This document shows, piece by piece, positions 2,707 through 46,622 of a stretch of DNA of 48,483 bases. A program made the position numbers and the translations under genes. Below the pieces are notes generated by a model. The model had not been told where the DNA came from. It did no database searches and saw only the letters and a program-made list of their open reading frames with translations. Numbering within the stretch: position 1 is the stretch's first letter; the number at the start of each line of letters is the position of its first letter. This DNA is from Rhodospirillaceae bacterium (GTDB taxonomy: Bacteria > Pseudomonadota > Alphaproteobacteria > MPNO01 > UBA2964): positions 5,844 through 54,326 of the forward strand of contig PAPV01000003.1 of the NCBI GenBank assembly GCA_002709075.1, given 5' to 3'.

Positions 2707-2748
2707 TTAGAATGTTTTAAACCAACCCCTAATAGTATTTTGCATTAT

Positions 2749-4444: not shown

Positions 4445-4518
4445 TTGCTTGCTTGAAATAGCAAATGATCTAACATCAAGAATTTAAATCGCCAATCATA
4501 AAAAAAGGGGCAGTCCCC

Positions 4519-5949: not shown

Positions 5950-6206
5950 TCAAAAATGCAAATTAACAAAACATTAAATGTGATATAGACAGATATTGTT
6001 TCTCACTGCGTTTAAACTTTTTGTCTATACGGGATCTATACTTTAAAATAAAACATACCTTACTATAGTTTTACTTAAGGTGGTAATTGTATTTTGCTTG
6101 TAGTTGTAACATATCGCGAATTCTTATAAGTCTATTTTTTCTAAATTTTATTTATTAAATTTTTAAGCGATTGAACTATTCAGGAAAATACTTCAGGATG
6201 TAGTGT

Positions 6207-7929: not shown

Positions 7930-7978
7930 AAGGATACTTACTGTAAACGCGTATATTATGTAAATGCGGCAGTAAATT

Positions 7979-9487
7979 TTAGGCCGTACCGTCTTTTTCA
8001 GCCGCTTTAGAAGCTATTTCAAGTAACTTTCGGCGATCAATCTTATTTGTTCCGGACAGGGGCAAATGTTCCATTATAAATACTCTCCGAGGATGCGCAT
8101 ATGGGGGTGCATTCTTCAGAGCGTATTCCTTTACCAGTTTCTCATTAAGATTACTCCCCTCCTTTACGACAATAAAAGCATGCGGAACATGTGCTTTAAG
8201 GATGTTAGGTGCTGGAACAACAACAGCCTGCATTATATCCTCGTGTCGTTCGAGCATTGCTTCAACATCGCCTGGATATATATTTTCTCCACCAGTCACA
8301 AACATATCATCTGCACGCCCTATGAAATAATACCAACCATGCTCATCGCGTCTAAGAATATCACCGGTATTTAGCCAGCCATCTTTCAAATCACGTTTAG
8401 TTGCTTCAGGCAAATTGTGATAGCCAAGCATTACCCCGGGGCTCCTTACCTTCAATATACCTTGATATTCGTTTGGCCCATCTTCAAGAGTAATTTCCAC
8501 CCCATCAATTGGAAAACCAACCGTGGTTCTAGGTCTCTCTAGACCATCTGGATGTTTCCAACTAAACAGGATTGGCCCGCCCTCAGTAATTCCATAGTTA
8601 AGGTTTATACGCGCATCTGGAAATCTATCCTGTAATTGATCTAACAGCACTTCAGAGGCAGGTGCTGAACCCATGCTTATGCTTCTGACAGAACTAATAT
8701 CGGTCGTGCTTATAAGTTTTTCTTGCTGAAGCATCAATGCATACATGGTTGGTACACCTGTTAACATCGTTATCTTATATTTTTCGATATATTTTATGTA
8801 CTTCCTTACATCGAATTTGGGTAATAATACAATTCTTCCGGCAGCTTGAAGTGCAGATTTGACCGCTAACAGCGCATTTTTGTGATAGAGTGGAGCAGAA
8901 ATGATTCCACAATCTTCCGGCACTAAACTGCGGCTCTCAACCAAACGATCTATCATCCAGCGTTGTCCAAAGTGATGAAGTAGTACACCTTTGGGATAAC
9001 CTGTCGAGCCCGAGGTATAAGGCTGCTCAGCAATATCGTCTGAATTAGGTTGATAACTCTCGAAGGGTCCGTGATCTTTAAAGTCTGAATAATTTCCGTT
9101 ATCAAACGAAATATAGCGTGTTTGGCTAGAACATAATTTGCGAAGGTTTTCATCACCGAAGACTATTTGAGCATTTGCATCTGAGATAATGTATTGAACT
9201 TGCTTAAAAGGCAGCTTTGCATTAATCAAAACTGGAACACATCCGGCTCGCATCGATCCAAAAAGTACCTCTAAAAATTCCAATCTGTTTAATGCCAAGA
9301 TTCCAATTCTACTACCCTTTTTAAAACCAGATCGCTTAAGGCCTCTGGCTAAAGAATTACAACCTTCTGTCAATTTGACATAAGACGTTTCGCGTGGATT
9401 TGCGTCATGAGAAAAATCAATTACTGCTAAATCATTGCTGTCACCATGAGCAGAAAAAACATCCCCAAGATTCCCAGAGGATTTCAT
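7979..9487 (-). CDS. Acyl-CoA synthetase (AMP-forming, ANL superfamily)
   Basis: Adenylate-forming ligase that activates a carboxylic acid to its acyl-CoA. Motifs in order are the P-loop YTSGSTGYPKG (about 156-166), SMGSAPAS (about 271), YGITEGGP (about 298), LNTGD (about 373) and the hinge/C-domain FIGRADDMFVTGGENIYP (about 387-404). The lysine of TNKIDRRKL near the C terminus is the catalytic A10 lysine. The substrate is unknown. It starts within the stop of the MDR gene (ATGA overlap), so the two are translationally coupled. The thiol dioxygenase upstream in the same direction suggests a short functionalised acid. Confidence 0.88.
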   Translation of the reverse strand: MKSSGNLGDVFSAHGDSNDLAVIDFSHDANPRETSYVKLTEGCNSLARGLKRSGFKKGSRIGILALNRLEFLEVLFGSMRAGCVPVLINAKLPFKQVQYIISDANAQIVFGDENLRKLCSSQTRYISFDNGNYSDFKDHGPFESYQPNSDDIAEQPYTSGSTGYPKGVLLHHFGQRWMIDRLVESRSLVPEDCGIISAPLYHKNALLAVKSALQAAGRIVLLPKFDVRKYIKYIEKYKITMLTGVPTMYALMLQQEKLISTTDISSVRSISMGSAPASEVLLDQLQDRFPDARINLNYGITEGGPILFSWKHPDGLERPRTTVGFPIDGVEITLEDGPNEYQGILKVRSPGVMLGYHNLPEATKRDLKDGWLNTGDILRRDEHGWYYFIGRADDMFVTGGENIYPGDVEAMLERHEDIMQAVVVPAPNILKAHVPHAFIVVKEGSNLNEKLVKEYALKNAPPYAHPRRVFIMEHLPLSGTNKIDRRKLLEIASKAAEKDGTA

Positions 9488-16044: not shown

Positions 16045-17055
16045 TTATATCCTCAGCCGATTAAAAACTTTCAATGTATTTCCACTAAACACCTCAGTTT
16101 TTTGTTCGGTAGTTAAATTCGGGGTCCCGTCAATATAACGCTTTGTATCATCAAAATTATATCCAGTCGTTGGATCAACCCCTCTGACTGCCCCCACCAT
16201 TTCAGATGCAAAAAGGATATTTTTTGTTGGAATAACTTTTGTCATACAGTCAATGCCAGCCTGATGGTAAACGCATGTATCAAAATAAACATTTTGCAAC
16301 ACATGTTCATCAAGCGGGGGTTTACCCATATCCTGGGCCAATCCACGATAACGTCCCCAATGAAAGGGGACCGCTCCACCACCATGTGGAATAATAAACT
16401 TAAGTGTTGGAAAGTCTTTGAATAGATCTCCTATTATTAATTGCATAAAAACAGTGGTATCACCAGCGATGTAATGGGCACCGGTATGATGAAAATTAGG
16501 ATTACAAGATCCTGATACATGAAGCATTCCAGGCACATCAAGTTCACACATTTTTTCCCAGAGTGGATACCACCACTTGTCAGTAATCGGCGGATCGGTC
16601 CACATCGCTCCGGATGGGTCTGGATTGACATTGCAACCTATAAAATCCATTTCATTAACACACCGTTCTAATTCTGCTATGCAGTTTTTCGGTTTAACTC
16701 CTGGAAATTGAGGCAGTTGACAAACTGGCACAAATCTCGATGGGTAGAGATCACAAACACGACGTATCATGTTATTTGAAATTTCAGCCCAATAGTAGCT
16801 AGTCTGCTCAGTACCCAAATGGTGCCCCATCCCGACCGCGCGGGGTGAAAATATTGATAAGTCTGTACCTCGTTCTTTCTGTAATTTGATCTGATTAGGT
16901 TCCAGTCTCTCACGTATCTCATCATCTGAAATGTTAAGTTTAGCCGGGCTAGGAAGAAAAGATGGATCAGCATCCAAGGCCTCTAATTGCTGACGACGAT
17001 ACGCCGTAAGCGCTTCCGGTTCAGTGGTGTAATGACCGTGACAATCAATAATCAT
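16045..17055 (-). CDS. ligJ: 4-oxalomesaconate hydratase (LigJ)
   Basis: Amidohydrolase-fold hydratase that adds water to 4-oxalomesaconate to give 4-carboxy-4-hydroxy-2-oxoadipate in the protocatechuate 4,5-cleavage pathway. Over its length it resembles sphingomonad LigJ: MIIDCHGHYTT at the N terminus (H6, H8), H179 in LHVSGSCNP, PHGGGAVPFHWGR (H224) and LFASEMVGAVRG with E285, which corresponds to the catalytic glutamate of LigJ. 336 aa is normal. The start is ATG with a good TAGGAG site. It is the last gene of the minus-strand cluster that includes ligI and an aldolase. Confidence 0.88.
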   Translation of the reverse strand: MIIDCHGHYTTEPEALTAYRRQQLEALDADPSFLPSPAKLNISDDEIRERLEPNQIKLQKERGTDLSIFSPRAVGMGHHLGTEQTSYYWAEISNNMIRRVCDLYPSRFVPVCQLPQFPGVKPKNCIAELERCVNEMDFIGCNVNPDPSGAMWTDPPITDKWWYPLWEKMCELDVPGMLHVSGSCNPNFHHTGAHYIAGDTTVFMQLIIGDLFKDFPTLKFIIPHGGGAVPFHWGRYRGLAQDMGKPPLDEHVLQNVYFDTCVYHQAGIDCMTKVIPTKNILFASEMVGAVRGVDPTTGYNFDDTKRYIDGTPNLTTEQKTEVFSGNTLKVFNRLRI

Positions 17056-17229
17056 TTATATCTCCTAAAAAGGAATTGTTTGTGTTAACCCAATTTTCGA
17101 CCCTTACAAAGCGGTACATTAGCTCTCATTCTGTGTTATTGTACAACATGTCTACCAACCAATTGTCGAATTAAACTGGTTACGGTTTGAAAAGAAAATA
17201 ACGACAATATAACACCGCACAGCTTTAAT

Positions 17230-18138
17230 CTAATAGCTTGGCTCACTATCCTCCGTGGTTACACTAGAACTTGATTTACGACCAGATAACTCCAATCCTC
17301 TCTCAAGGCCTGTCAAAGATCGTTGTGCAGCACACATGAGAAAAGTATAGCCTTCATCAAGAATGCGTTGCACGTTAGACGCATTAACGTGTGGATGTCC
17401 TACCGGAACATTGTTATCAACACATGTTTGTGTAATTTTCTTCATAGCATCCAATACCACAGGATGGTCATATTGACGCGGAAATCCTAATTCTTGACTG
17501 AGGTCACCCTCCCCAATTAAAATTGCGCCAATACCCGGAATATTTTTAAGAATATCATCCAAAGCCTCGATACCCTTAGTATCTTCAATCATCAAGACAA
17601 CCAAAATCTCTCCATGAGGCACTAATGGCCACACATCAGCTTTTTTATAGTATTCGTGCTGCGACAATCCCCAGTACCTTACCGCCTGGGTTGGCCCATC
17701 TCCTCTAATTCCTGCCGGTTCGTAAAATGATTTATCCTGAAGTCTTGGATACCGACATGCGGCTACTGCATTGTAAGCTTCTTCCACTGAGCTAATATGA
17801 GGCCAAACAACTCCATACACACCCAAATCCAAAGCCTGCTTGGCTTGAAATTGAGCCATTTCATTGCCGTTTGGAGGCACGCGCACCATTGGGGTAACAA
17901 GTGGTGAGATAGATCCCGAAGTTGCTATTTGGCCCCGATTCAGCATGTATTGCAAACAATCCCGTAATAATGGCCCATCCCAGGGGTTATGCTCCATTTC
18001 AAAAACAATCCCGTCGTAATCTGTGTTATTGCTGAATGCAATAGCACTCGGTACATCTGGTGTTGCAAAAGCTGTAAATGTTGGTTTCTTTGCTTCTAGC
18101 GCCTTTATCACACCGTTTAAGCGGGGGATTCCAGCCAT
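17230..18138 (-). CDS. HpcH/HpaI-family aldolase
   Basis: Class II pyruvate-dependent aldolase/citrate-lyase-beta fold enzyme of 302 residues. Characteristic stretches are FEMEHNPWD (about 47-55), MVRVPPNG with the catalytic arginine (about 88), YGVVWPHISSVEEA, and MIEDTKGIEALDDI followed by LIGEGDLSQELG, which supply metal and substrate contacts. The start has a very good GGAGAGG site. Lying between ligI and ligJ, it is the natural candidate for splitting 4-carboxy-4-hydroxy-2-oxoadipate into pyruvate and oxaloacetate. The usual enzyme for that step, LigK/ProA, belongs to a different (RraA-like) family, so the assignment is inference from context. Confidence 0.85.
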   Translation of the reverse strand: MAGIPRLNGVIKALEAKKPTFTAFATPDVPSAIAFSNNTDYDGIVFEMEHNPWDGPLLRDCLQYMLNRGQIATSGSISPLVTPMVRVPPNGNEMAQFQAKQALDLGVYGVVWPHISSVEEAYNAVAACRYPRLQDKSFYEPAGIRGDGPTQAVRYWGLSQHEYYKKADVWPLVPHGEILVVLMIEDTKGIEALDDILKNIPGIGAILIGEGDLSQELGFPRQYDHPVVLDAMKKITQTCVDNNVPVGHPHVNASNVQRILDEGYTFLMCAAQRSLTGLERGLELSGRKSSSSVTTEDSEPSY

Positions 18139-18157
18139 TTGCCTCTCCTTTCATATA

Positions 18158-19048
18158 CTAAACAAATCGATATAGTCGTTCCGGGTTATCTACAAGGATA
18201 CGGTTTCTAATATTTTCATTCGGTGCGTAAAGCGGTAATAGATTTATTAAATCACCGTCATTAGGCATTAGTCCTCTAATATTGGGGTGTGGCCAATCTG
18301 TGCCCCATAGCACACGATCAGAAGCAGCAGAAATACAAGCTTTAGCGAATGGTACTGCATCATAATACGGTGAACCATTGGATGAGATCCTCTCTGCTCC
18401 ACAGATCTTTACCCAAAAATTTTCGCAATTACGCAATAAGTCGAGCAACAGTTGGAATGCTGCATGCTCAATGCCATTCTCAGTCCTAATCCTGCCCATA
18501 TGATCAATAACCACTGGGACACTCATGGTCGATAGTTTTTTGACATTTTCAATTATATCATCAGATTCCATATAGATGACAACATGCCAACCAAGAGGAG
18601 CAATTTTTTCTACCACCCGATTTACCAAATCGAAATCTGGTTCTTGACCAATATGTCGTGCAAACGAGAATCGCACCCCACATACCCCTACCTCATCCAT
18701 CCTTTTAAATTGTTCCACACTAAAGCTATCATCCGCAATAATAACACCTTTGTAATGCCCCTGTGATCTCTTAACTGCATCTAAAGTGACCGCGTTATCT
18801 GTGCCATGACATGTCGCCTGCACAATGACAGCTCGAGTTAAACCAAGAGCCCTCTGCAATAATTGCAAATCCTGAAATGGTGCATCCGGAGGTGTGTAGG
18901 TTCGTTCTTCGGCAAACTTGAATGTTTTTACTGGTCCAAATACATGACAATGAGCATCACAAGCATTAACGGGAACTACGAAATTTGGTTTTTTAGTCTT
19001 AGGGTCAGGCCCTTGGCAATAATACATACCAAGAACGTACATTTCCAT
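18158..19048 (-). CDS. ligI: 2-pyrone-4,6-dicarboxylate lactonase/hydrolase (LigI)
   Basis: Amidohydrolase that opens 2-pyrone-4,6-dicarboxylate to 4-oxalomesaconate. It shares with LigI the N-terminal DAHCHVFGP (H33, H35), VIVQATCHGTDN (about 78-89), WHVVIYME, VVIDHMGR (His, about 175) and WGTDWPHPN with the catalytic aspartate (near 250). This set is specific to the LigI branch. 296 aa is normal. It lies 19 bp upstream of the aldolase gene, so they are in one operon. Its product is the substrate of the LigJ encoded two genes downstream. Confidence 0.87.
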   Translation of the reverse strand: MEMYVLGMYYCQGPDPKTKKPNFVVPVNACDAHCHVFGPVKTFKFAEERTYTPPDAPFQDLQLLQRALGLTRAVIVQATCHGTDNAVTLDAVKRSQGHYKGVIIADDSFSVEQFKRMDEVGVCGVRFSFARHIGQEPDFDLVNRVVEKIAPLGWHVVIYMESDDIIENVKKLSTMSVPVVIDHMGRIRTENGIEHAAFQLLLDLLRNCENFWVKICGAERISSNGSPYYDAVPFAKACISAASDRVLWGTDWPHPNIRGLMPNDGDLINLLPLYAPNENIRNRILVDNPERLYRFV

Positions 19049-19296
19049 GTATGCACCTGCAAGGTCGAAAGATAAACAAAATGAAAGACCTTCTTATTTG
19101 AACCGAACTAAACTAATCACACAAACTGGAAATATTTGGAGGGAACAAAAAAACTGCCTAACGTCAATCATATTATTCATTTCCTATGCTAATTATAAAA
19201 AATATTTTTTTGTTTTTCCGTAAGGCCCGCATACATGTAAAATATTATATTTATTTTTCATTTTCTTCGTTAGAAGATAACAAAACAGCTTAAAAG

Positions 19297-20253
19297 CTAG
19301 GTGACATATGTCCGCAGCAAACCGATTTGTGCAGACTCAATTTCTACAATATCACCGGATTTTAGAAAACGTTGTTTTTGGGGCTTGAGACCAACGTTAA
19401 TTGGGGAGGAGTCCATAGCTGTACCTTCAGCTGTGCCGCCTGATATAATATCACCAGAAAAAAAAGTTAAGTTCTGAGACAAATATTCCAAATACTCTGC
19501 ATATGAGAAAGCCATATCTCCAGAAATAAATTTTTGCCGCACCTCGCCGTTGATACGAGTTTCTAGTTCAACTTTCATATGATCAATTTCTCCGACAGCA
19601 ATACTCGGCCCTATCGAACAACACCCATCAAAGTTTTTTTGCAGTGCAAAATTAAGAGGCCCGTCCTCAGGCGCCATCCTGATCGACCAATCTCCAAGCA
19701 ATGTTACCCCCCAAACATAATCCCTGATACTTTCTGATTTTATATTTTTCCCGGTTTTTCCAATTATAATAGCGCATTCACCCTCGTAATCTAGATACTC
19801 GCATTGACTCGGATAAGATAGCTTACCATTGTGGCCGAGTGGTTCTCGTTCAACTTTCCAAAAACCCCAGAAGCCTCGATTACGAACATATCTAACTGGA
19901 TTACCTTCTATGGAACTTTTCTCGCCGCGCTCTACTCGACGTTTAGCCATAGCAACCGCGTGTGAGGGGTAATTTCCACCGCAACAAGCAATTTTCGCTG
20001 TAGCAACGCAGGGGGCATGCAGAACTGAGTATTCTAAAGTTTTTATGATATCTTCATCTGCTTCACCAAGATTTTCTGCCGCCGAACCCAATATATCTAG
20101 TGTCGGTTGCCCCCCCTCAATTAGATTTTGCAAATCCGCCATATATTCGGCATTAGAATAACCGATACGAAATAAAGCACGTCCAACATCTATAATGTTT
20201 CCGCCTTTTAAAACACCAGTTCTTTTTTTTGGTCCATAAACAACTATTTTCAT
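19297..20253 (-). CDS. Fumarylacetoacetate hydrolase (FAH) family protein
   Basis: FAH-fold enzyme of about 318 residues acting on a 2-oxo or 2-hydroxy-dienoate acid. The metal-binding glutamates lie in EYLDYEGECAIIIG (about 157-170), followed by VWGVTLLGDWS and the C-terminal SGDIISGGTAEGTA and LKSGDIVEIE. The in-frame TTG at 20259 is possible, but the ATG at 20253 gives the usual N terminus. In this cluster it could be a hydrolase, an isomerase or an oxaloacetate tautomerase/decarboxylase (FAHD1-like). The exact reaction cannot be read from the sequence. It sits 248 bp from ligI and 221 bp from dctM, all on the same strand. Confidence 0.82.
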   Translation of the reverse strand: MKIVVYGPKKRTGVLKGGNIIDVGRALFRIGYSNAEYMADLQNLIEGGQPTLDILGSAAENLGEADEDIIKTLEYSVLHAPCVATAKIACCGGNYPSHAVAMAKRRVERGEKSSIEGNPVRYVRNRGFWGFWKVEREPLGHNGKLSYPSQCEYLDYEGECAIIIGKTGKNIKSESIRDYVWGVTLLGDWSIRMAPEDGPLNFALQKNFDGCCSIGPSIAVGEIDHMKVELETRINGEVRQKFISGDMAFSYAEYLEYLSQNLTFFSGDIISGGTAEGTAMDSSPINVGLKPQKQRFLKSGDIVEIESAQIGLLRTYVT

Positions 20254-20474
20254 GAGCAAAACTATTTTCTTATAATTTCATTTATTATATTCGAGAAATT
20301 TACCTGATGATATTAATTACGGATTTAAATGCTGAAATAATATTAAAAAGTATGTTGTTTGTGCAGAAAGCAGAATAATAACGAAAAAACTAATCAGACC
20401 ACTGTAAGTTTTAAACAATTAGTTCGAAGATATATAAAATAAATCCAGTTATCTGTTTCACCGCAAAATTCTAA

Positions 20475-21785
20475 TTAAATCAATGAGGGAAGAAATGTTA
20501 CCAATTGAGGAAATGCAGCCAGCAAAGCCATTCCTACCAAAAAAAGACCTACAAAAGGCCAAGATGCCCGGAAGACCTCGCTAATTTTAAGGTTATCTGC
20601 CGCGCCCTGAAATGCGAAAATAACATAACCAAATGGCGGCGATATGCCACCCACAGTTACATTCAAAAGCATTATCAACCAAAACCATATTGGATCAAAG
20701 CCTAGTGTGGCTAGCAGTGGTTGATAGATAGGAATTACCACTAACATAAGTGCAATTTGATCAATGAACATACATAAAATAAAGGGAATCGCCATCATCA
20801 CAAACAACATTATCATCGGATGCCACCCCAGAGACACAATAAGATTTGTTAATTCAGATGTTGCACCTGTAAAAGCCAGCAATTGACTGAACATTCTGGA
20901 CGACGCCATTATGAGAAGTATCATACTCGTAATAAATGCAGCAGTACCAAGAGACTCTATTAACATTGACCAACTTAACCGACGATAATAAAGGGCTGTT
21001 ATCATGGACGCCAGAACACCAGTCGCTGCTGCCTCAGATGGAGTCGCAATACCAAACATTATAAACCCCATTACGGAGAAAATTATTAATGCAAAAGGGA
21101 AGCAGCTCCAAATAGCCTTCAGCTTTTCCGAAAATGATACCATCGAAAGACTTGGGTCATTATCGTCTGGGGCAAGGTTGGGGTTTAGCTTTACTCGGAG
21201 CATAGTATATCCAAGAAAAAGAGAGGCGAGCATCAAACCCGGTATAATCCCCCCAATTAAGAGCCCTGCTATCGATGTATTTGATAAAGTTCCAATGATT
21301 ATTGCTAGTACACTTGGAGGAATAATAGGTGCTAGACTAGCTCCGGCCAGCATGTTTCCGATGGCTAGTTTGCTATCATAACCACGGTTCTTCATCGTCG
21401 GAAAAAGAGTTCTTGCTAGCATAGCGGCAACAGCCATACCAGCTCCCGATAGGGCACCAAACACTGTCGAGAGGGATATTGTCAAAACATATTGACGGCC
21501 TTTCATCCTACCAACAAGCTTATCCACGGCCTGAAATAATATCTCAACGGAACCTGATCGAAATAAAATTTCTGCCATAAGAATAAATAATGGTATGGTC
21601 GCTAAATCGGCATTATTTGTGGTGTCAAAAATTGAATTCGCTACCATTCCGAATCCAGCTGGACCCAAAAAAATAACTACGCCTGCTAGATTTATTGTCA
21701 GAAAACCAACAAATAATGGGGCGCCTGTGAGAAAAGCTGCCAGCAGTAGCAAAATTGCAGTAATTAAAATTACTTCCCAACCCAT
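20475..21785 (-). CDS. dctM: TRAP transporter large permease (DctM)
   Basis: Large membrane subunit of a tripartite ATP-independent periplasmic transporter. The 436-residue protein is almost entirely hydrophobic with about 11-13 membrane segments. It has the family motifs TIPLFILMAEIL (about 62-73), FGALSGAGMAVAAMLARTLFP and APIIPPSVLAIIIG, and ends with SPPFGYVIFAFQG and a final anchor. It is three bases downstream of dctQ. Together with dctQ and dctP it forms a complete Na+-driven organic-acid importer serving the catabolic genes around it. Confidence 0.93.
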   Translation of the reverse strand: MGWEVILITAILLLLAAFLTGAPLFVGFLTINLAGVVIFLGPAGFGMVANSIFDTTNNADLATIPLFILMAEILFRSGSVEILFQAVDKLVGRMKGRQYVLTISLSTVFGALSGAGMAVAAMLARTLFPTMKNRGYDSKLAIGNMLAGASLAPIIPPSVLAIIIGTLSNTSIAGLLIGGIIPGLMLASLFLGYTMLRVKLNPNLAPDDNDPSLSMVSFSEKLKAIWSCFPFALIIFSVMGFIMFGIATPSEAAATGVLASMITALYYRRLSWSMLIESLGTAAFITSMILLIMASSRMFSQLLAFTGATSELTNLIVSLGWHPMIMLFVMMAIPFILCMFIDQIALMLVVIPIYQPLLATLGFDPIWFWLIMLLNVTVGGISPPFGYVIFAFQGAADNLKISEVFRASWPFVGLFLVGMALLAAFPQLVTFLPSLI

Positions 21786-21788
21786 AAT

Positions 21789-22307
21789 TCAACTATTCCC
21801 AAAACCACCGGTTGTAGAGGCAGATTTTATATCAATGTTATTGTAGTTCATAAATCGCATAAAATGAATGGTAGAGCTCACAAAACCAAACGGTATAAAT
21901 ATCGAAATTAGATATTTGGGAACTGGCTTAACCGCCATAATATTTACATCATTTGTCCATTGTCGCCATGACTCGTCGAAACAAAACCAAGCCGAAAGTG
22001 CACATGTGAGGAAACCAAGAAGGTAGGTTAACCAAATAACAGGTTTTACCGCAACAAGCGGTAATATCTCAAAAATTATAGCTACGGCTACATGTCCCTT
22101 TTTCCAAGTGACATATGGCATCATTAAAAATGTTCCAATACAAAGTGAATATGACACTGCCTCACTAGCCCACCATTGAGGTGCATTAAAAAAATAACGC
22201 AAAAAAACTTCAATAATGTAGGCCCCAAAGATACTGGCAAGCGCCAGACATGCTAAGTAATATCCAGCCTGAGTAATTTTATCATGAAGATTAAAAAAAT
22301 AATTCAT
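21789..22307 (-). CDS. dctQ: TRAP transporter small permease (DctQ)
   Basis: Small membrane subunit with four predicted membrane helices in 172 residues. Helices run roughly 14-34, 46-65, 78-105 and 132-152, and a polar C terminus ends in GGFGNS. RYFFNAPQWWASE in the first loop is typical of DctQ proteins. It lies 57 bp downstream of dctP and 3 bp before dctM, the usual P-Q-M order. Confidence 0.88.
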   Translation of the reverse strand: MNYFFNLHDKITQAGYYLACLALASIFGAYIIEVFLRYFFNAPQWWASEAVSYSLCIGTFLMMPYVTWKKGHVAVAIIFEILPLVAVKPVIWLTYLLGFLTCALSAWFCFDESWRQWTNDVNIMAVKPVPKYLISIFIPFGFVSSTIHFMRFMNYNNIDIKSASTTGGFGNS

Positions 22308-22364
22308 TACAAAATAGAGGAGAGTGGCTAGGTATTTAAAAAAAACTAACCACTCTTCCTTAAT

Positions 22365-23351
22365 TTATTGTGAAAGCCCAGCTTTTTCGGAAAGAGCTCT
22401 CAGTTCATTAGCAACGCTGCCACAGCATTTTTCTCCCTGTTTCCAAAGCGACTCTGAAAATGTCTTTCGCAATTTCGCTGCTTTTTCAGAAGAAAGTTTA
22501 GTAATTTTCACGCCCTTGGCTGCTAGTGCAGAATCCTCCTTTGCTTGGAGTGCGTCTCCTATCCACGGCATCTCAAGTTCCGTCTGGTAACCAGCTGATA
22601 GCAGAATAGACTTATTGGCTTGTGTTAAGCTTTTGTATTTTTTCAAATTCATAAATACAGGTGGGTGGGTTGTACCAAAGGTTGGTCTTATTTTGTGCTT
22701 TGCTACCTCGTAATGCTTCATATTCAGCATTCCAGCAGAAGGCCAGGCTGCTCCATCAACCACTCCCTTTTCAAGAGCTGAATACACTTGAGAGCCTGGC
22801 AAAACAACAGGTTGTCCTCCAAGAAGTTTGATCACACCAAAATATGTTTGAGTGCCGCGTATTTTTCGGCCTTGAAAGTCACCGGATTTAGATAACGGCT
22901 CTTTCAAGAACATGTGATAGCCATGAGTGCTAGCAGGGGCGGCTGCCAAAAGCTTTAGCCCGTGTGCTTCCTGATAAAATTTGTCAAGTTTATCCCAAAC
23001 ACCTGATAATCTTTTTCCTACTGGATCAGGTAACATTGCATCAATACTTACTGCAAGCCCTTTTGCCCCCGCATGATATGCACCATGAGTGAATAAAATG
23101 TCAAAAACACCCGACTTTACAGGTTGTAGTTGCTGAAATGCCGGCACAACTTCGGGCCCACTAATTTTCAACTTAACCTTTCCACCACCAATTTTTTCTA
23201 CGTTCTTTACGAAAGTATCGAGTACAACATATGTAGGCCATATATTTTTATTCCAACTAGAAAGAACTTTAAGTTCAGTGGCTAGCAATGGACTAGAGCA
23301 GAAAATAGTAAAAATAGAAGTAGCTAAAGCATATTTTGATAAAAATTTCAT
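22365..23351 (-). CDS. dctP: TRAP transporter solute-binding protein (DctP)
   Basis: Periplasmic ligand-binding subunit. A signal peptide is evident: KFLSKYALATSIFTIF followed by a cleavage region near SSPLLA (about 19-24). The carboxylate-clamp region is GRKIRGTQTYFGVIKLLGG (about 150-168), and VYSALEKGVVDGAAW is the conserved DctP block. The strong GGGAGGG site before the ATG suggests high expression, normal for a binding protein. The ligand is inferred to be an aromatic or pyrone dicarboxylate from the downstream enzymes. An imperfect palindrome lies about 20 bp upstream of the start. Confidence 0.9.
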   Translation of the reverse strand: MKFLSKYALATSIFTIFCSSPLLATELKVLSSWNKNIWPTYVVLDTFVKNVEKIGGGKVKLKISGPEVVPAFQQLQPVKSGVFDILFTHGAYHAGAKGLAVSIDAMLPDPVGKRLSGVWDKLDKFYQEAHGLKLLAAAPASTHGYHMFLKEPLSKSGDFQGRKIRGTQTYFGVIKLLGGQPVVLPGSQVYSALEKGVVDGAAWPSAGMLNMKHYEVAKHKIRPTFGTTHPPVFMNLKKYKSLTQANKSILLSAGYQTELEMPWIGDALQAKEDSALAAKGVKITKLSSEKAAKLRKTFSESLWKQGEKCCGSVANELRALSEKAGLSQ

Positions 23352-23436
23352 GAAACCCTCCCTAAGAAATTTCTATATTGAGTATATTGAAATGGTATTC
23401 GTTGACAAATCAACTTGCAACCCCGAACGTGTTATT

Positions 23437-24441
23437 TCAAATTCGAAGTTGTTCGAATGGTTCTAGTGCTTCCTTTGCAAATATATCCTCTGGGTTCAAA
23501 TGTTTTTTAGTTATGCCCTGATAAAAGCAAAATCGTAGGAAACACTCAATGGTATGGTGATTACGCTTGATCCCATAAGGCCAATAGTCACCATTAGGAA
23601 AAAATTCTTCTTTAATTTGTGACGTATGCTGCTGAATCCAAGGCAAAGGGATCTGGGACACATTCATATCGGTTAATCTATTGATTGAACTTATTTTTGC
23701 ATCCTCAAATGCATCGAAAATATTTCTAGCAATCCAAGGATTTTTCTCATACGTTGAACGCTTTAAAGCAATGGTATGCATTATTGGAAAAATACCAGTA
23801 TTTCTGAAATATTCTCGTTCCACATCGTGATAATCTTTATATAACCTTACAATGTTCGGGTCACCTGCCAACATTCGCCGAGGTGGATCAGCGGTAATAA
23901 GTGCATCTATTTTTCCACCAACCAAAAGATCTGCGAGCGATTCATTATTTACATTGCGTAACCGAACACCATTTGGGGGTTGTTCAACAGTATCGTCCAA
24001 ACGACCTGGACTATTCGGTCCTAGTTGTACCCATTCTATTTCTTTTAATGAAATACCAATTGTTTCATTCAACCAACCCCGCACATAAGTGGTTGCAGTT
24101 TGGGCCCATTGTGGCAAGCCAACTTTTTTTCCACTCAAATCCTTAGGAGTTTTTATTAAACCATCGGGCCGAACATAAATGCTAGATAGTCTAAAAAGAC
24201 GGGATGGAAAAATTGGGATAAGTACAAAAGGCGCGTTTCCGCGATCAATTGCCTGACAAGACATAGCAAAGGATATTTCGGAAATATCCCACTCCTGATT
24301 CTTTAGAAATCTCTTAAACGTCTCCTCAACTTCCATAACAAGGCACGTGAGTTCAATACCTTTCGGCTTTACTCGGCCAGTAAAAAGGTCACGAACATGA
24401 TCATAATCGTTTATACCTAGAGTAAGGCTTATATCCCCCAT
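23437..24441 (-). CDS. 4,5-dihydroxyphthalate decarboxylase-like protein (Pht5/NMT1-like), copy 1
   Basis: 334-residue protein of the periplasmic-binding-protein fold family that includes 4,5-dihydroxyphthalate decarboxylase, which yields protocatechuate. It has no signal peptide, so it acts in the cytoplasm. Characteristic blocks shared with copy 2 (37806-38798) are GNAPFVLIPIFPSRLFR (about 69-85), DLSGKKVGLPQWAQTA (about 104-119), EREYFRNTGIFPIMHT and the C-terminal DYWPYGIKRN. Similar proteins are sometimes annotated as ABC substrate-binding proteins. It is the first gene of the catabolic run and lies 48 bp downstream of mntR on the same strand. Confidence 0.75.
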   Translation of the reverse strand: MGDISLTLGINDYDHVRDLFTGRVKPKGIELTCLVMEVEETFKRFLKNQEWDISEISFAMSCQAIDRGNAPFVLIPIFPSRLFRLSSIYVRPDGLIKTPKDLSGKKVGLPQWAQTATTYVRGWLNETIGISLKEIEWVQLGPNSPGRLDDTVEQPPNGVRLRNVNNESLADLLVGGKIDALITADPPRRMLAGDPNIVRLYKDYHDVEREYFRNTGIFPIMHTIALKRSTYEKNPWIARNIFDAFEDAKISSINRLTDMNVSQIPLPWIQQHTSQIKEEFFPNGDYWPYGIKRNHHTIECFLRFCFYQGITKKHLNPEDIFAKEALEPFEQLRI

Positions 24442-24489
24442 TTGTAATGCCTCGCAAACAGATGATTATTTTCCAAAATGCTGAAAATG

Positions 24490-24975
24490 TTATTTCCTTA
24501 CTGCCTGTTTCTTAGTGAATTTTTCAAATGACTGCAGCGTCTCCTCACTGCAGTGGTGTTCGATTCCCTCAGCATCTGCCCAAGCTATTTCTTCTGGAAC
24601 ACCCATTGCAAGCAAAAACTCCACAATTATGTGATGTCGCATACGGCACTTCTCTGCGATCAACCGGCCCTTATCAGTCAAAAAAATAGAACGGTAAGGT
24701 TGAGCAGTAACTAATTCAAGTTGTTGGAGGCGCGCTATCATTTTATTCACTGTGGCAGAGGTAACCCCAAGACGTCTACATATCTCCACTGATCTTGCTT
24801 CACCCAACTCATCAATAAGATCAGCGATTAGCTCTACATAATCCTCAATCGTTTCTGTCTCATGTGCCTGCCGAACCTGACGAAAATGCTTGGCTTGAGT
24901 GTCCGGACTCATATGCGCAGAGACCGCACTTGAACTTCCGGAAGTTTTTTTTGAGGCGCAACTTGTTTCAGTCAT
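24490..24975 (-). CDS. mntR: Manganese-responsive regulator MntR (DtxR family)
   Basis: DtxR-family repressor using Mn2+ as corepressor. Its sequence follows E. coli MntR closely: FRQVRQAHETETIEDYVELI (about 31-50), the winged helix GEARSVEICRRLGVTSATVNKM (about 56-77), PYRSIFLTDKGR, and the metal-binding region RHHIIVEFLLAMGVPEEIAWADAEGIEHHCSEET with its metal-ligand glutamates and histidines. The first ~30 residues are polar and variable. It is divergent from a predicted Mn exporter, and the shared 129-bp gap has a single perfect palindrome (25010-25030) lying between possible -35 and -10 elements of mntR. Confidence 0.92.
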   Translation of the reverse strand: MTETSCASKKTSGSSSAVSAHMSPDTQAKHFRQVRQAHETETIEDYVELIADLIDELGEARSVEICRRLGVTSATVNKMIARLQQLELVTAQPYRSIFLTDKGRLIAEKCRMRHHIIVEFLLAMGVPEEIAWADAEGIEHHCSEETLQSFEKFTKKQAVRK

Positions 24976-35414: not shown

Positions 35415-37766
35415 ATGAGTTACGGGATTGGTCAACCGGTCCATAGAATTGAAGATCCACGATTTCTTACCGGACGAGGAACCTATGTCGATGATATACA
35501 GTTACCAAGAATGGCTTATGGAGCCGTTGTTTATGCACAAGTTGCAAAAGCTACCATAAGGTCGCTCGACACGATAGCTGCTCGACAAATGCCCGGTGTG
35601 CTCGACATAATCACCGGACAAGATTTAAAAAAAGATAATATCGGATTTTTACCACCAGCATTCATGCCAGCTGATATGGGCGGACCGGAGGGATACCGAG
35701 CTGTGCGTCCAATTCTAGCTCACGAACAATCTAAATTTGTCGGAGACCGAATAGCATTTGTAGTTGCTGAGACTGAGTCTCAAGCTCGAGATGCCGCGGA
35801 GGAAATTGTTGTCGATCTCAAAATTGAAGACCCTGCCATATTTTCGGAAACCGCTGCTATTGACGGCGCGCCGGTTGTACACCAAGAAGCCGGTTCTAAT
35901 GTGTGTTATGAGTTGCAAATGGGCGACGAAGCTGCCGCTGAAACTGGACTTGCCTCTGCAGACCATATTGTAAAGTTAACAATCTATAACAACAGAATTA
36001 CAACAAACTCAATGGAACCAAGGGGTTGCATTGGTCAGTACGATCCATCCCAACAGCATTACACAATTTGGAGTAGCACACAAAACATCCACGGATTAAG
36101 ATTATTTTTAGCACAACATGTTTTCCACGTTCCGGAATCACGCTTAAGGGTAATTGCTAAGGATGTTGGGGGTGGGTTTGGTATGAAAAACTCCGTCCAT
36201 CAAGAGGAAGCGCTTGTTCTTTGGGCCTCACGCCGAATTAGCCGCCCAGTAAAATGGATTGCGGCAAGGTCAGAAAGTCACATTAGCGATGATCAAGGCA
36301 GGGATCAGTTAGTGACAGCAGAATTAGGCCTGAACAAATACGGAAAATTCACAGGTCTAAGATGGCGAGGTTTTTATAACGCAGGCGCATATTTGGCAAA
36401 TTCCGGAAATATTCCGATACAGCATTCATTAAAGCTTGCACCCACAGTCTATGACATACCAGCCACTCATGTTGCGCAAAAGTTAGTTTACACAAATACT
36501 GCTCCTATGGCTCCTTACCGTGGCGCTGGAAGGCCAGAAGCAGTTTTTTGCATGGAGAGACTTATAGATTTGGCGGCTAAAGAGACAGGTTTTGACCGAA
36601 TTGAACTTCGAAGAATTAATTATATCGATCCGGAAAATTTTCCTTATACAACAGCTACTGGATTTAAGTACGATTCCGGTGAGTTCGCAGCAACCATGGA
36701 TAAATGTTTAGAATTATCCGACAGTGTAAACTTTGAGAACCGCCGTCAATCATCAGAGGCCAACGGAAAACTTCGCGGACTGGGTATAATTTACTACATA
36801 GATAATTGTGGAAACTTCAATGAGAGAATGGAACTCCACTTCGACCCGAGCGGTGGATTAACGTTAAAAACCGGCACCCTTTCTCACGGACAAGGGCATG
36901 AAACAGTTTTCACACAGATGCTATGCGAAAAGCTTGGGATTGAACCAGAGTTTATAAATTTTGTTCAGGGAGATACTGATCAGGTGCCCTTTGGTCGAGG
37001 TACTTATGCGAGCCGGTCCATGACCGTTGGGGGGAATGCCCTGATTGCCGCAGCTGATGACATTATTCAAAATGGAAAAAAATTCGCTGCACACTATTTG
37101 GAAGCTAATCCTGATGACATTGAATTCGAAAACGGGGTTTTTCGTATTGCAGGCACTGACCGCAAAATTAATTTGGACGCCGTTGTTAAAAGGTCTTTTG
37201 CACCACTAGGCAATCCGGTTGAACTGGGAATTGGTTTACATGGAGTTGGCACATTTGGCATAACTTCGCCTAGCTTTCCAAATGGTTGCCATATTTGTGA
37301 GTTAGAAATTGATCCCGATACCGGAGCCACAGAGATTTCGAGCTACACCGTAGTCGACGATATTGGCCGAGTTCTAAATCCGCTTCTTGCGCACGGACAG
37401 ATACACGGCGGAGTAGCCCAGGGTGTTGGTCAAGCACTGCTGGAAGATATGATATATGACCGCCAATCTGGTCAAGTGTTGACGGGGTCTTTTATGGACT
37501 ACGGCATGCCAAAAGCTGATAACTTCCCCAATCTTGCAGTAGAAACCAATGAGGTTTTATGCAGAACCAACCCTCTCGGTGTAAAAGGTGTAGGCGAAGG
37601 CGGCACAGTAGGAGCAACACCATGCGTAATCAACGCTGTATTGGACGCCTTAGCCCCACTCGGGGTAACAGATATTCAAACTCCGGCAACGCCCAAAAGA
37701 ATATGGGAAGCTATTCAATCGAAAAATTTTAAATACACTGTCGCCACAAGTAATGCTAAGCGATAA
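35415..37766 (+). CDS. Xanthine dehydrogenase-family molybdopterin-binding subunit (CoxL-like, form II)
   Basis: Large Mo-cofactor-binding subunit of a molybdenum hydroxylase, 783 residues. It begins GIGQPVHRIEDPRFLTGRG as aerobic CO-dehydrogenase-family large subunits do. It has KDVGGGFGMK (about 251-260), APYRGAGRPEA (about 363-373, the form II signature rather than AYRCSFR of true CO dehydrogenase), and a C-terminal GVGEGGTVGA with the catalytic glutamate (about 738-747). The 2Fe-2S and FAD subunits that normally accompany it are not adjacent. It is followed 39 bp later by a dihydroxyphthalate-decarboxylase-like gene. Likely substrate is an aromatic or N-heterocyclic compound, by inference. 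Confidence 0.88.
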   Translation: MSYGIGQPVHRIEDPRFLTGRGTYVDDIQLPRMAYGAVVYAQVAKATIRSLDTIAARQMPGVLDIITGQDLKKDNIGFLPPAFMPADMGGPEGYRAVRPILAHEQSKFVGDRIAFVVAETESQARDAAEEIVVDLKIEDPAIFSETAAIDGAPVVHQEAGSNVCYELQMGDEAAAETGLASADHIVKLTIYNNRITTNSMEPRGCIGQYDPSQQHYTIWSSTQNIHGLRLFLAQHVFHVPESRLRVIAKDVGGGFGMKNSVHQEEALVLWASRRISRPVKWIAARSESHISDDQGRDQLVTAELGLNKYGKFTGLRWRGFYNAGAYLANSGNIPIQHSLKLAPTVYDIPATHVAQKLVYTNTAPMAPYRGAGRPEAVFCMERLIDLAAKETGFDRIELRRINYIDPENFPYTTATGFKYDSGEFAATMDKCLELSDSVNFENRRQSSEANGKLRGLGIIYYIDNCGNFNERMELHFDPSGGLTLKTGTLSHGQGHETVFTQMLCEKLGIEPEFINFVQGDTDQVPFGRGTYASRSMTVGGNALIAAADDIIQNGKKFAAHYLEANPDDIEFENGVFRIAGTDRKINLDAVVKRSFAPLGNPVELGIGLHGVGTFGITSPSFPNGCHICELEIDPDTGATEISSYTVVDDIGRVLNPLLAHGQIHGGVAQGVGQALLEDMIYDRQSGQVLTGSFMDYGMPKADNFPNLAVETNEVLCRTNPLGVKGVGEGGTVGATPCVINAVLDALAPLGVTDIQTPATPKRIWEAIQSKNFKYTVATSNAKR

Positions 37767-37805
37767 ATTAATGTAAAATAAAGTAATTTAATCCAGGAGA
37801 TTATT

Positions 37806-38798
37806 ATGTCTGACCTTCATCTTACTATGGCAATAAATCACTACGACCACGTGCAAGATTTGGCGTCGGGACGTGTTAAACCCGAAGGAATAGACCTTAC
37901 AGTAATAAATCACGGTCCTGAAGAAATTTTTCACCGATTTCTTTTTGGATTTGAATGGCAGATCTCTGAAATCTCAATGGGAATGAGCACATCACGTCTT
38001 TCGATGGGCAATGCGCCGTTTGTGCTAATTCCCATTTTCCCTTCACGTGTTTTTCGGCATTCCTCAATTTATATGATGAATAATGGACCCGTTAAGACCC
38101 CAGACGATCTAAAAGGGAAGCGTATCGGTATCCCTGAATGGGGCCAAACCGCGGGAATATATACAAGGGGTTGGATGGTTCACACTGCAGGGGTTGGGCT
38201 AAATGAAGTCAAATGGTTTCAATCCGGTATTAACGAACCGGGCCGTCAAGAAGCCTCAACGCTCAATTTACCTGAAGATGTTAGTTTGACAGTAATTACT
38301 GACCGGTCCTTAACGCAAATGTTGTTTGATAAAGATCTCGATTGTGTGTTTTCTGCAAGACCACCTAAAGAATTTCTTGAGGGGGACCCGAGAATAATTC
38401 AAATGTACCCAGATTTTCGGAGCGCGGAAGAAGAATATTTTAAAGAAACTGGTATCTTTCCAATAATGCATACTGTAGCTGTTCGCAAAGATGTCTTTGA
38501 GAAGAATCCTTGGGTGGCACAAAATTTGATGACTGCATTTGAAGACGCAAAGGCATTAAGTTATGCTCGTATGTCTGGTTACACAGTATCTCACTACCCC
38601 GTTCCATGGCTGTATCACGATGGCCTGAGGGAAAACCAAAAGTTGTTTAAGGGTGATTTTTGGCCCTATGGTATTGAACCCAATAAAACAACACTGACTG
38701 CCTTTTTAGAATTTGCTTGGGAACAAGGAACTATCCATAAAAAACTCTCCATTGAAGACTTATTTCCTGAAGAAGTTCGTCACCACTACAAACTATAA
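37806..38798 (+). CDS. 4,5-dihydroxyphthalate decarboxylase-like protein, copy 2
   Basis: 330-residue homologue of the product of 23437-24441, same family and layout. GNAPFVLIPIFPSRVFR (about 68-84), KGKRIGIPEWGQTAG (about 103-117), ARPPKEFLEGDPRI, EEEYFKETGIFPIMHT and DFWPYGIEPN match copy 1 block for block, whereas linker regions diverge. No signal peptide is present. The start has a CAGGAGA ribosome-binding site. Being the next gene after the CoxL-like subunit, it may decarboxylate the hydroxylated product of that enzyme; the pairing is inference. Confidence 0.75.
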   Translation: MSDLHLTMAINHYDHVQDLASGRVKPEGIDLTVINHGPEEIFHRFLFGFEWQISEISMGMSTSRLSMGNAPFVLIPIFPSRVFRHSSIYMMNNGPVKTPDDLKGKRIGIPEWGQTAGIYTRGWMVHTAGVGLNEVKWFQSGINEPGRQEASTLNLPEDVSLTVITDRSLTQMLFDKDLDCVFSARPPKEFLEGDPRIIQMYPDFRSAEEEYFKETGIFPIMHTVAVRKDVFEKNPWVAQNLMTAFEDAKALSYARMSGYTVSHYPVPWLYHDGLRENQKLFKGDFWPYGIEPNKTTLTAFLEFAWEQGTIHKKLSIEDLFPEEVRHHYKL

Positions 38799-39197: not shown

Positions 39198-40334
39198 ATG
39201 TTAATAATCAACAACGAAACAGTCGGGAAGGTTCTGAATATGAAGGACTGCATCTCTGTGCAAGAAGATGCGTTTAAAAAACTGTCCAGTGGAGAGTCTA
39301 TGCATAGGCCACGTGTAGATATGTATATGCCTTGCAATAGAGAGGATGGTTATTTTCGGTGGGGCACGATGGAGGGAGCGAATGATGGGTTTTTTGCGAT
39401 CCGAATGAAATCAGACATAGTGCATTGGCCTAAAGATCAAAGTAAAAACTGGACGGAAGAAAAGTACTGCAGAGAGCCCGGCACATATTGTGGTTTAATA
39501 CTTCTTGTCAGCACAGATAATGCTGAGCCACTTGCATTTATAAATGACGGAATTCTTCAACATTACCGAGTTGGTGGAGGCGCCGCTTTAGGAGTGAAAT
39601 ACCTATCCCGACCAGAGTCACAAGTCGTAGGCATGCTTGGTTCCGGAGGCATGGCTCGAACTTTTCTAAATGCTTTTACCTGCGTCCGTGATATTTCAAA
39701 GTGTAAAGTTTACAGTCCTACAGAGGAACATCGTGTTGCCTTTGCCAATGATATGGAGAAAACCCTTGGCATCGAAGTTCTTCCGGTCGACTCCCCAGAA
39801 GAAGCTCTTCGCGATGTCGACATCGTCTCAAGCTGTACTGACTCGATGGAGCCGGTGTATAAGGCGGAGTGGTTAAAACCAGGCATGCATGTCACAAATT
39901 TGGGGCGAAGAGAGGTCAGCGATGAAGCTGCAAAGAAATTTGACGTAGTTATTCGTCAGGGGACCGCAGGATTGCAAATGAAACAAACGAAGAGATTTCA
40001 GGCCGAACGTGGGCTAAGCCCCGCTGCATTCATCGGGGGTACTAATTCTCAAATGAGAAGAATTCCTGGCAAAAACCCTAACCCTGGATTTGGTGGAGAC
40101 GATCCAGAATTTTCTGATCGAGGTAGGGGAGCAAGCAAACCTGATTTTCAAGCTTTAGCTCAAAATCCCCGATTAGGAAGAACCAATCCCAACCAAATAA
40201 CCTTTTACCGTAATGTTGGAAATCAAGGTCTTCAATTTTCTTCGGTTGGAGGCCTCGTTTATAAAGCCTGCAAAAAACTTGGATTAGGAAAACAGATCCC
40301 TACTGAGTGGCTACTACAAGATATAAGAGATTAG
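39198..40334 (+). CDS. Ornithine cyclodeaminase/mu-crystallin family protein
   Basis: NAD(P)-dependent enzyme of 378 residues in the OCD/mu-crystallin/ketimine reductase family. The Rossmann motif is GMLGSGGMARTFLNAF (about 143-158), preceded by YRVGGGAALGVKYLS and followed by DVDIVSSCTDSMEPVY and HVTNLGRREV. Family members include ornithine cyclodeaminase and imine/ketimine reductases; which applies here cannot be told. At 378 residues it is slightly longer than the common 310-350, owing to a Gly/Asn/Pro-rich insertion near 280-310. It is separated from its left neighbour by 399 bp and convergent with dksA. Confidence 0.83.
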   Translation: MLIINNETVGKVLNMKDCISVQEDAFKKLSSGESMHRPRVDMYMPCNREDGYFRWGTMEGANDGFFAIRMKSDIVHWPKDQSKNWTEEKYCREPGTYCGLILLVSTDNAEPLAFINDGILQHYRVGGGAALGVKYLSRPESQVVGMLGSGGMARTFLNAFTCVRDISKCKVYSPTEEHRVAFANDMEKTLGIEVLPVDSPEEALRDVDIVSSCTDSMEPVYKAEWLKPGMHVTNLGRREVSDEAAKKFDVVIRQGTAGLQMKQTKRFQAERGLSPAAFIGGTNSQMRRIPGKNPNPGFGGDDPEFSDRGRGASKPDFQALAQNPRLGRTNPNQITFYRNVGNQGLQFSSVGGLVYKACKKLGLGKQIPTEWLLQDIRD

Positions 40335-41004: not shown

Positions 41005-41364
41005 TTACTCATCATTTAGTAGAAGCGCAGTGAATAATTTGATTTCATCCGCTACAGAACTCGCCGCCTTTTGTTCGATACGGCGGTAACGTTTCAAAGC
41101 TTCAGCACCTGCATCAGTAAGCTGTGCGCCGCCTCCCCCACTGCCACCAGATGATGCAACAACCAAGGGAAAACGGAAGTCGCGGTTCATCGCCTCAATC
41201 AACTTCCATGCCCGACTGTAAGACATGTTCATATTCCTCGCCGCTGCGGAAATTGAACCACTTTGCGAAATAGCGTCGAGTAAGTCTGCTTTTCCTGGGC
41301 CTAACGCTATTGTTTTCCCCATAAGGATTCTCAAACGTGGGCGATTAGCATTATCCCTGATCAT
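41005..41364 (-). CDS. modE: ModE-like winged-helix regulator (DNA-binding domain only)
   Basis: 119-residue protein matching the N-terminal DNA-binding domain of ModE: GKADLLDAISQSGSISAAARNMNMSYSRAWKLIEAMNRDF (in shorter pieces, about 24-63) and the wing GGSGGGGAQLTDAGAEALKRYR. The C-terminal molybdate-binding (Mop/TOBE) domains of E. coli ModE are absent. The start overlaps the end of mobA by 14 bp. A canonical ModE palindrome lies upstream of moaA in this window, making it the obvious target. How molybdate is sensed without the Mop domains is unclear. Confidence 0.83.
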   Translation of the reverse strand: MIRDNANRPRLRILMGKTIALGPGKADLLDAISQSGSISAAARNMNMSYSRAWKLIEAMNRDFRFPLVVASSGGSGGGGAQLTDAGAEALKRYRRIEQKAASSVADEIKLFTALLLNDE

Positions 41365-42025
41365 AATTCAGAACTTGCTTTTCAGCCATTTCAAAATCTT
41401 CAGGGTTGTTGATGTTGAAAAATGGGTCATTTGGTTCAGTGGGCCATTCAACCCCCATGGATTTACAACGGGAAATCAACACATTGACCTCGCTCACTCC
41501 CTCTTCCAAAACTGCACGATGTAAAAATTTATGCAGCCTGACCCGCCAGAGGCTGCAAATGTAATGTACTCGTTTCCCGGAGTGAGAGTAAACTATATCG
41601 ACATCTTTATTTTGCACTTGCCAATAAAGTTGCGTTACAAAATCACTTGGTAAGAATGGAGTGTCGCAGGGAAAGCTTGCAATCCATTCGGTCTCAGGAT
41701 GAAACTTTCTAACCCATTCCATTCCAGCAATAATACCCCCTAGTGGACCAACATGGTCCTTACTTTCATCTTGCACGATAGGTATACCGAATGAACAGTA
41801 TTTTTCGTTCCTATGATTAGTACTTAAGCAAAGTGCTTTAAGTTGTGGTTGCACAATTGCAAGTATTCTTTTCAATAGCGGAACTCCGGCTAATACCATA
41901 AAAGCTTTATCATGTCCGTTCATACGACGGGAATGACCTCCCGCGAGTAGGACACCGCAAACTTTGTTCTTAGCAATCAAGGCTGAAATACCAATCTCGA
42001 GTGGACATTTTAAGATTAATCTCAA
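41351..42025 (-). CDS. mobA: Molybdenum cofactor guanylyltransferase (MobA)
   Basis: Transfers GMP from GTP to Mo-molybdopterin. The N-terminal GVLLAGGHSRRMNGHDKAFMVL (about 24-45; nucleotide-binding LAGGxSxRMGxDKA signature) is clear, followed by PIVQDESKDHVGPLGGIIAGM (about 85-105) and SFPCDTPFLPS (about 117-127). The available starts are TTG at 42025 and a later TTG near 41980; the first ~20 residues are atypical, so the true N terminus is uncertain. It overlaps modE-like downstream. It may also supply dinucleotide cofactor for other Mo enzymes. Confidence 0.88.
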   Translation of the reverse strand: MRLILKCPLEIGISALIAKNKVCGVLLAGGHSRRMNGHDKAFMVLAGVPLLKRILAIVQPQLKALCLSTNHRNEKYCSFGIPIVQDESKDHVGPLGGIIAGMEWVRKFHPETEWIASFPCDTPFLPSDFVTQLYWQVQNKDVDIVYSHSGKRVHYICSLWRVRLHKFLHRAVLEEGVSEVNVLISRCKSMGVEWPTEPNDPFFNINNPEDFEMAEKQVLNYDQG

Positions 42026-45620: not shown

Positions 45621-46622
45621 ATGGAATCCCATCTTATTGATCCCTTTGGACGCAAAGTTAATTATCTGCGTGTCTCTGTAACCGACAGGTGCGATTTTCG
45701 CTGTGTTTATTGTATGGCTGAAGATATGACGTTTTTACCTAAAAGCGAAGTACTCTCCTTAGAGGAAATGGAACGTGTTTGTTCTACATTTGTTGACCTC
45801 GGCGTAAAGAAACTTCGCTTAACCGGCGGAGAACCATTGGTGCGCCGCAACATAATGTGGCTTTTCACTAAACTTTCACGGCATTTAGAATCCGGTGACC
45901 TAGAAGAATTAACCGTAACAACCAATGGCAGCCAACTCAGCAAATATGCAAAGGAGCTTGCTGAGGTCGGGGTGCGGCGAATAAATGTATCGCTTGATAC
46001 ACTCGATGAAAAAAAATTTGGCGGCATCACTCGGTGGGGACGCCTCCGACAAGTTTTAGATGGTTTAGAGGCTGCAAAAAAAGCAAATCTTAAGATAAAA
46101 ATAAATGTGGTGGCTCTGCGCGGTATAAATGATGAAGAAATCCACGATTTAGTGGCTTGGTGTGGTGGCGAGGGCTTTGATTTAACTTTTATAGAGGTTA
46201 TGCCAATGGGGGAAATTGGTGATTTGAGGCTTGATCAGTATCTTCCCCTTTCGATGGTGAGGGCAAAATTAAACGAGAAGTGGACACTGGAAGACATTAA
46301 CTACAGCACCGGAGGCCCTGCCCGTTATGTCAAAGTTAAAGAAACAAATGGCAAAATCGGTTTTATTACTCCGATGACCCACAATTTCTGTGAAAGCTGC
46401 AACAGAGTCAGGCTTACCTGCACTGGCCAGCTTTATTTATGTCTTGGACAAGAAGACTCCGCTGACTTACGATCTGCAGTGCGTGCAGATAAAAATAATG
46501 CAAAATTAATAGCTACTATAAATGAAGCTATTGGAAGAAAACCGAAAGGCCATGACTTCATTATTGACCGGCGTCGTGGTCAATCCTCTGTGCCCCGGCA
46601 CATGAGCGTGACTGGTGGTTAA
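45621..46622 (+). CDS. moaA: GTP 3',8-cyclase MoaA
   Basis: Radical-SAM enzyme for the first step of molybdenum-cofactor synthesis (GTP to 3',8-cyclo-7,8-dihydro-GTP). The N-terminal CDFRCVYCM (about 24-32, CxxxCxxC) holds the SAM-binding cluster. [12 protein letters not shown] (about 73-84) and [11 protein letters not shown] follow. The second 4Fe-4S site is in the C-terminal [23 protein letters not shown]. 333 residues is normal. The C terminus lacks a GG motif beyond 'VTGG', which matches the MoaA GG dipeptide. A ModE box precedes it. Confidence 0.96.

Follow-up and report, generated by a model that had tools for sequence, protein, structure and literature searches.

The window analysed here is a 48,483-nucleotide stretch (GenBank assembly GCA_002709075.1, contig PAPV01000003.1, positions 5,844 to 54,326 of the forward strand) from a relative of uncultivated and probably marine alphaproteobacteria that are Rhodospirillaceae-like; its genome (G000) is a 2.5-Mb draft of 26 contigs and is 99.9% complete. 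Genomes, contigs, and loci are designated by G, C, and L numbers, respectively, and the window lies on contig C3. It contained a gene for a CoxL-like Mo-hydroxylase large subunit that was followed by genes for a decarboxylase-like and an ornithine cyclodeaminase (OCD)-like protein:

35415..37766, plus strand: orphan CoxL-like Mo-hydroxylase large subunit, 783 aa (open reading frame, domains, motifs, and trees)
37767..37805, plus strand: 39-bp gap between the CoxL and Pht5-like genes, with an AGGAG-type ribosome site before the second start
37806..38798, plus strand: Pht5-like protein with the 4,5-dihydroxyphthalate decarboxylase fold, 330 aa (match to PDB 9jp7, E 5e-58)
39198..40334, plus strand: ornithine cyclodeaminase/mu-crystallin-family protein, 378 aa, probable third member (best PDB match 6t3e)
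41005..41364, minus strand: ModE-like DNA-binding protein (HTH_1), context only
41351..42025, minus strand: MobA-like NTP transferase, context only
45621..46622, plus strand: MoaA, context only

The CoxL-like protein contained the Ald_Xan_dh_C, MoCoBD_1, and MoCoBD_2 domains that characterize form II CoxL and the xanthine oxidase family, and its motifs were intact, including GGGFG (252), PYRGAGR (within 364-375), and GVKGVGEGG (722), which is of the GxGEGG type and carries the catalytic Glu. PYRGAGR is a form II type motif in which P replaces the first A of AYRGAGR, and the ortholog in genus g4 has A. The (A/S)YRCS(F/L)R motif that marks form I CO dehydrogenase (PMC13240472) was not found in a motif test of this protein. 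The original prediction of a form II CoxL followed after 39 bp by a decarboxylase-family gene was therefore confirmed by the reading frames, domains, motifs, and the 9jp7 match. The adjacent coxS and coxM genes that accompany form II CoxL were lacking, and searches for Fer2_2 and FAD_binding_5 domains gave no match on the entire contig, which extends the earlier observation that no 2Fe-2S or FAD subunit is encoded beside CoxL. Marine surveys have recovered form II CoxL alongside form I, and the activity of form II has been described as unresolved (PMC13240472).

The orphan status of this CoxL is real, but it is not unusual in this genome. G000 encoded 22 CoxL, 8 CoxS, and 8 CoxM proteins; only six CoxLs belonged to full sets and the other 16 were orphans. 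All eight CoxS and eight CoxM genes were located off the window's contig, and two CoxS-CoxM pairs (C17 and C21) had no CoxL. A hidden CoxL near these two pairs was rejected because tblastn detected none, the matches there being to the CoxS domain and CoxG-like tails. Similar CoxL:CoxS ratios were obtained for the single-contig genome G005 (41:14) and for G004, G006, and G012 (34:12, 39:13, and 32:11, respectively), and the ratio was about 1.4 (197:139) when summed over the other alphaproteobacterial families sampled, with G086 left out. The complete genome G055, from another family, contained four CoxLs and one CoxS; three of its CoxL genes are tandem orphans (L250, on C21 of G055, about 1969 to 9150). 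Fused subunits were also observed. CoxLs of about 1000 aa (L043:6758-9757 and L025:7143-10103) matched the CoxG gene region in tblastn as well, which suggests CoxL-CoxG fusions, and a 913-aa CoxL with a 2Fe-2S part (L036:11903-14644), a CoxS-CoxL fusion, adjoins a CoxM gene.

The CoxS-CoxM pair on C17 belonged to an operon that is conserved across the order and that lacks coxL:

G000 C17:8008-15024 (L027:7009-14025): coxL-less operon coxG-coxS-coxM-coxD-coxE-xdhC-xdhC-mob

The operon without coxL was found in G000, G004, G005, G006, G009, and G012, in G014, G019, G021, G023, and G025 of family f3 (the operons of G025 and G023 lie near contig ends), and in G055. In G002, G003, G013, G015, and G024 it carried a CoxL gene between S and M. 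The G051 operon, which appeared coxL-less from coordinates alone, was rejected as such because a CoxL gene adjoins it, and searches of G001 and G007 (86% complete), as well as of G008, G010, and G011, detected no operon of this type. The simplest history suggested by these arrangements is that a form II operon lost its coxL on more than one occasion. In phylogenetic analysis, the CoxLs encoded within such operons formed one clade (support 100/100) with the orphans from the window, C12, C14, C15 (two), C18, and C22 (two), and with the three tandem CoxLs of G055, which points to a shared ancestry of orphan and operon-encoded CoxLs. The complete-set CoxLs included in this tree fell outside the clade; a fused C12 CoxL and one C13 CoxL were left out of it owing to long branches, and were outside the orphan clade in another tree. 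The other orphan CoxLs of G000 all fell in different clades from this one.

On the basis of the subunit census, the coxL-less operon, and the common clade, the supply of electron-transfer subunits in trans, as originally predicted, appears to be the best reading, and the search for unlinked coxS and coxM genes named candidates for it, including the C17 and C21 pairs. A somewhat unlikely alternative is that the orphan CoxL acts alone, uses another electron acceptor, or draws its CoxS and CoxM not from C17 but from the C21 pair or any of the six complete sets. Several donors are indeed available in the genome, and CoxLs were detected without any CoxS in G079 and G090 (4 and 6 CoxLs), which are 87% and 68% complete, respectively. 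However, solved relatives of this type consist of L, S, and M subunits in a complex whose clusters are buried (PMC8305194), the CoxLs encoded within the relatives' operons belong to the orphan clade while the tested complete-set CoxLs do not, and G055 has a single CoxS for its four CoxLs. In a broader reading of the sequences, to which we give a little less than even odds, a form II cox operon repeatedly lost coxL and became a hub for electron transfer and maturation (CoxG, CoxS, CoxM, CoxD, CoxE, and XdhC) that is shared by a clade of interchangeable, dispersed CoxLs, each with its own downstream enzyme; the pair in the window would be one such plug-in, serving an undescribed acid-degradation route. 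In the open-licence papers, of which coverage was partial, no account of orphan CoxL sets sharing CoxS and CoxM was found.

A survey of other genomes indicated that the pairing of CoxL with the Pht5-like protein is real, conserved, and not due to chance. Nine relatives within the family carried orthologs of the Pht5-like gene (69-83% identity), and both orthologs were kept in 10 of the 13 family genomes searched, being adjacent in 8 of these 10, with G000 included. CoxL was located directly 5' of Pht5 on the same strand in G000 (39 bp) and in G001, G004, G006, G007, G009, and G010 (55-62 bp); G005 also had CoxL beside Pht5, but its CoxL was frameshifted. The two genes were present and unlinked as assembled in G012 and G003, neither ortholog was found in the incomplete genomes G008 and G011, and in G002 a CoxL (52%) was found, while the threshold used gave no ortholog of Pht5. 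Absence of the pairing in relatives would have counted against the original prediction; the pairing is instead conserved in most of them. The paired CoxLs formed one clade in a tree of intact copies from which G005 was left out (support 100/99). Its sister, L135 from another lineage, has a CoxL gene that overlaps a Pht5-like gene; this Pht5 partner fell outside the window's Pht5 clade, so its link to CoxL either arose independently or reflects an exchange of partners. Further associations included a CoxM-CoxS-CoxL-Pht5 row on C5 of G000, a Roseomonas operon (L179), Nocardioides (L168), and G086 (L112). Across 80 database loci, 8 CoxL matches were located in the 226 kb within 1.5 kb of Pht5, 3 of them from the window's own family, vs 5 in the 778 kb farther out. 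The neighbors in other lineages were catabolic, comprising Amidohydro_2, DHDPS-like, and Rieske genes at L135 and UbiX/UbiD at L168. No terminator-like site was detected in the 39-bp gap by a terminator scan; promoter and terminator scans of the locus were set aside as evidence because their signal did not exceed that of shuffles. In genus g4, a NUDIX-family gene was located directly 5' of the pair (L079:12135-12602 and the same place in others), and it was absent in g1.

The original prediction described a unit of two genes. This description missed the OCD-like gene on the same strand, which is linked to Pht5 in relatives. Its best PDB match, 6t3e, is a delta1-pyrroline-2-carboxylate reductase. 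Linkage of Pht5 and OCD was found in G000 (C3 and C14), G001, G009, G010, G012, and G023, and neighboring OCD and Pht5 genes occurred beyond the family in Chloroflexota (L164), Acidimicrobiaceae (L133), and an alphaproteobacterium (L128), so that this linkage is at least as widespread as that of CoxL and Pht5. Because the OCD-like gene is often located downstream of the pair, the unit may comprise three genes, and a step that reduces an imine would be in keeping with an N-heterocyclic acid as substrate. It is also conceivable, if unlikely, that the functional unit consists of the Pht5-like and OCD-like proteins, with CoxL as a loosely linked neighbor outside the route. OCD lies 3' of Pht5 in G000, G001, G009, G010, and G012, the last of which keeps Pht5-OCD with CoxL not alongside, and C14 encodes paralogs of Pht5 (49%) and OCD (55%) that overlap by 4 bp and have no CoxL. 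On the other hand, the spacing of CoxL and Pht5 (39-62 bp) is tighter than that of Pht5 and OCD (62-399 bp or more), CoxL-Pht5 persists in G004 and G006, where other genes displace OCD, and a CoxL ortholog was found in all 10 genomes that have the window-type Pht5.

At the level of the fold, the Pht5-like protein is related to Pht5, but it is not an ortholog. Its AF2 model (pLDDT 94) superimposed on 9jp7 over the full length with a TM of 0.94 and an rmsd of 1.8, and residues Y13, R44, E55, S57, R81, R84, R121, T215, H222, and W236, near-invariant in the family, were conserved in both proteins. In contrast, its identity to 9jp7 was only 33%, and the two fell in different well-supported clades. 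The earlier description as dihydroxyphthalate-decarboxylase-like is therefore sound for the fold and the conserved residues, but not for orthology. Its neighbors included no phthalate dioxygenase or dihydrodiol dehydrogenase. We consider it rather doubtful that this protein merely binds solutes or acts as a sensor in the cytoplasm, without catalysis. Such a function would be in line with weak matches to the NMT1/THI5 and SsuA families and with a fold superfamily that is that of periplasmic binding proteins, whereas the model resembled SsuA/TauA/THI5/MqnD-type proteins far less closely (TM about 0.42-0.55) than the decarboxylase, and the polar residues shared with 9jp7 are near-invariant. Solute-binding proteins of the SsuA/TauA/NMT1 type are recognized by an export signal and adjoining transporter genes; inspection of the N-terminus, which was made by eye and not with a predictor, revealed no obvious signal, and inspection of the neighbors revealed no ABC or other transporter genes directly beside the window gene. 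Both of these absences, together with the fold, led us to reject a role in a transporter. Other Pht5-like sequences in G000 included a paralog on C19 that is closer to 9jp7 (45%) than the window protein, and a broken copy with five in-frame stops (C16:13996-14397).

It is highly improbable that the window CoxL is a decaying duplicate without function, as its lack of linked partners and the frameshifted copy in G005 might suggest, since its frame is open, its cofactor and Glu motifs are intact, and open-frame orthologs of about 55-78% identity occur in seven relatives (G001, G004, G006, G007, G009, G010, and G003).

Taken jointly, the sequences are best explained by a plug-in CoxL that depends on the shared hub and acts with the decarboxylase-like enzyme on an acid, an explanation in which our confidence is evenly balanced. 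The orphan CoxL would bind Moco and hydroxylate an organic acid, of which an aromatic or N-heterocyclic carboxylate is the probable type. The Pht5-like enzyme, which is probably made from the same mRNA, would then remove a carboxyl group or perform related PBP-fold lyase chemistry, and the OCD-like protein may join the same route in many relatives as an NAD(P)H-dependent imine reductase. Electrons from CoxL would pass to CoxS and CoxM made elsewhere and presumed to form a complex with it, most likely those of the coxL-less C17 operon, which would also provide maturation proteins and serve several orphan CoxLs of one clade.

This arrangement resembles form II cox (coxSLM-DEF) operons in the CoxL domain order, in the GGGFG, YRGAGR, and GxGEGG motifs, and in the coxG, coxS, coxM, coxD, coxE, and xdhC genes of the hub, but here coxL is missing from the hub, and the gene for the window CoxL lies at another place, together with a Pht5-like gene. 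Pht5 of Comamonas testosteroni KF-1 (9jp7) is similar to the window protein in length, fold, and the conserved Arg/Glu/His set, and differs in sequence, clade, and gene neighborhood, as described above. The picolinate route (PicA dehydrogenase, PicB monooxygenase, and PicC decarboxylase) likewise involves dehydrogenase-type hydroxylation of a ring acid and later decarboxylation (PMC10142695); however, PicC belongs to the amidohydrolase family and is not Pht5-like, and a cluster of three genes (picA1A2A3) encodes PicA. In the KdhL/KdhMS ketone dehydrogenase of Paenarthrobacter nicotinovorans, the L gene also lies apart from the MS pair (kdhL, pnh, kdhMS; PMC10494377), but within one cluster and with one L per MS pair, whereas here the donor operon is located elsewhere and is probably common to many L subunits. 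If many CoxLs share one CoxS and CoxM, counts of complete coxMSL operons miss most of the Mo-hydroxylase repertoire in bacteria of this kind, and specificity would reside in the L subunit alone. The paired Pht5-like gene offers a lead to the substrate and suggests that an aromatic or N-heterocyclic acid is processed by a decarboxylating route.

The Moco and ModE-like genes noted earlier near the pair are real; they provide weak evidence because the link is not retained in most g4 relatives, and this linkage was set aside as support. The link was kept in G001, ModE and MobA were about 8 kb away in G012, and most g4 relatives had other flanking genes; the link is thus at most genus-level. The window also encoded a box-pathway set (benzoate-CoA ligase, BoxB, and BoxC) and a 3-hydroxybenzoate 6-monooxygenase, so that the functions of this region include the breakdown of aromatic acids. 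A catabolic cluster on the minus strand (16045-24975) contained two Amidohydro_2 genes, an HpcH/HpaI aldolase, an FAA hydrolase, a TRAP transporter, a MarR-like regulator, and a second Pht5-like gene:

23437..24441, minus strand: Pht5-like paralog, 48% identical, within the TRAP transporter/FAA hydrolase/amidohydrolase/aldolase cluster
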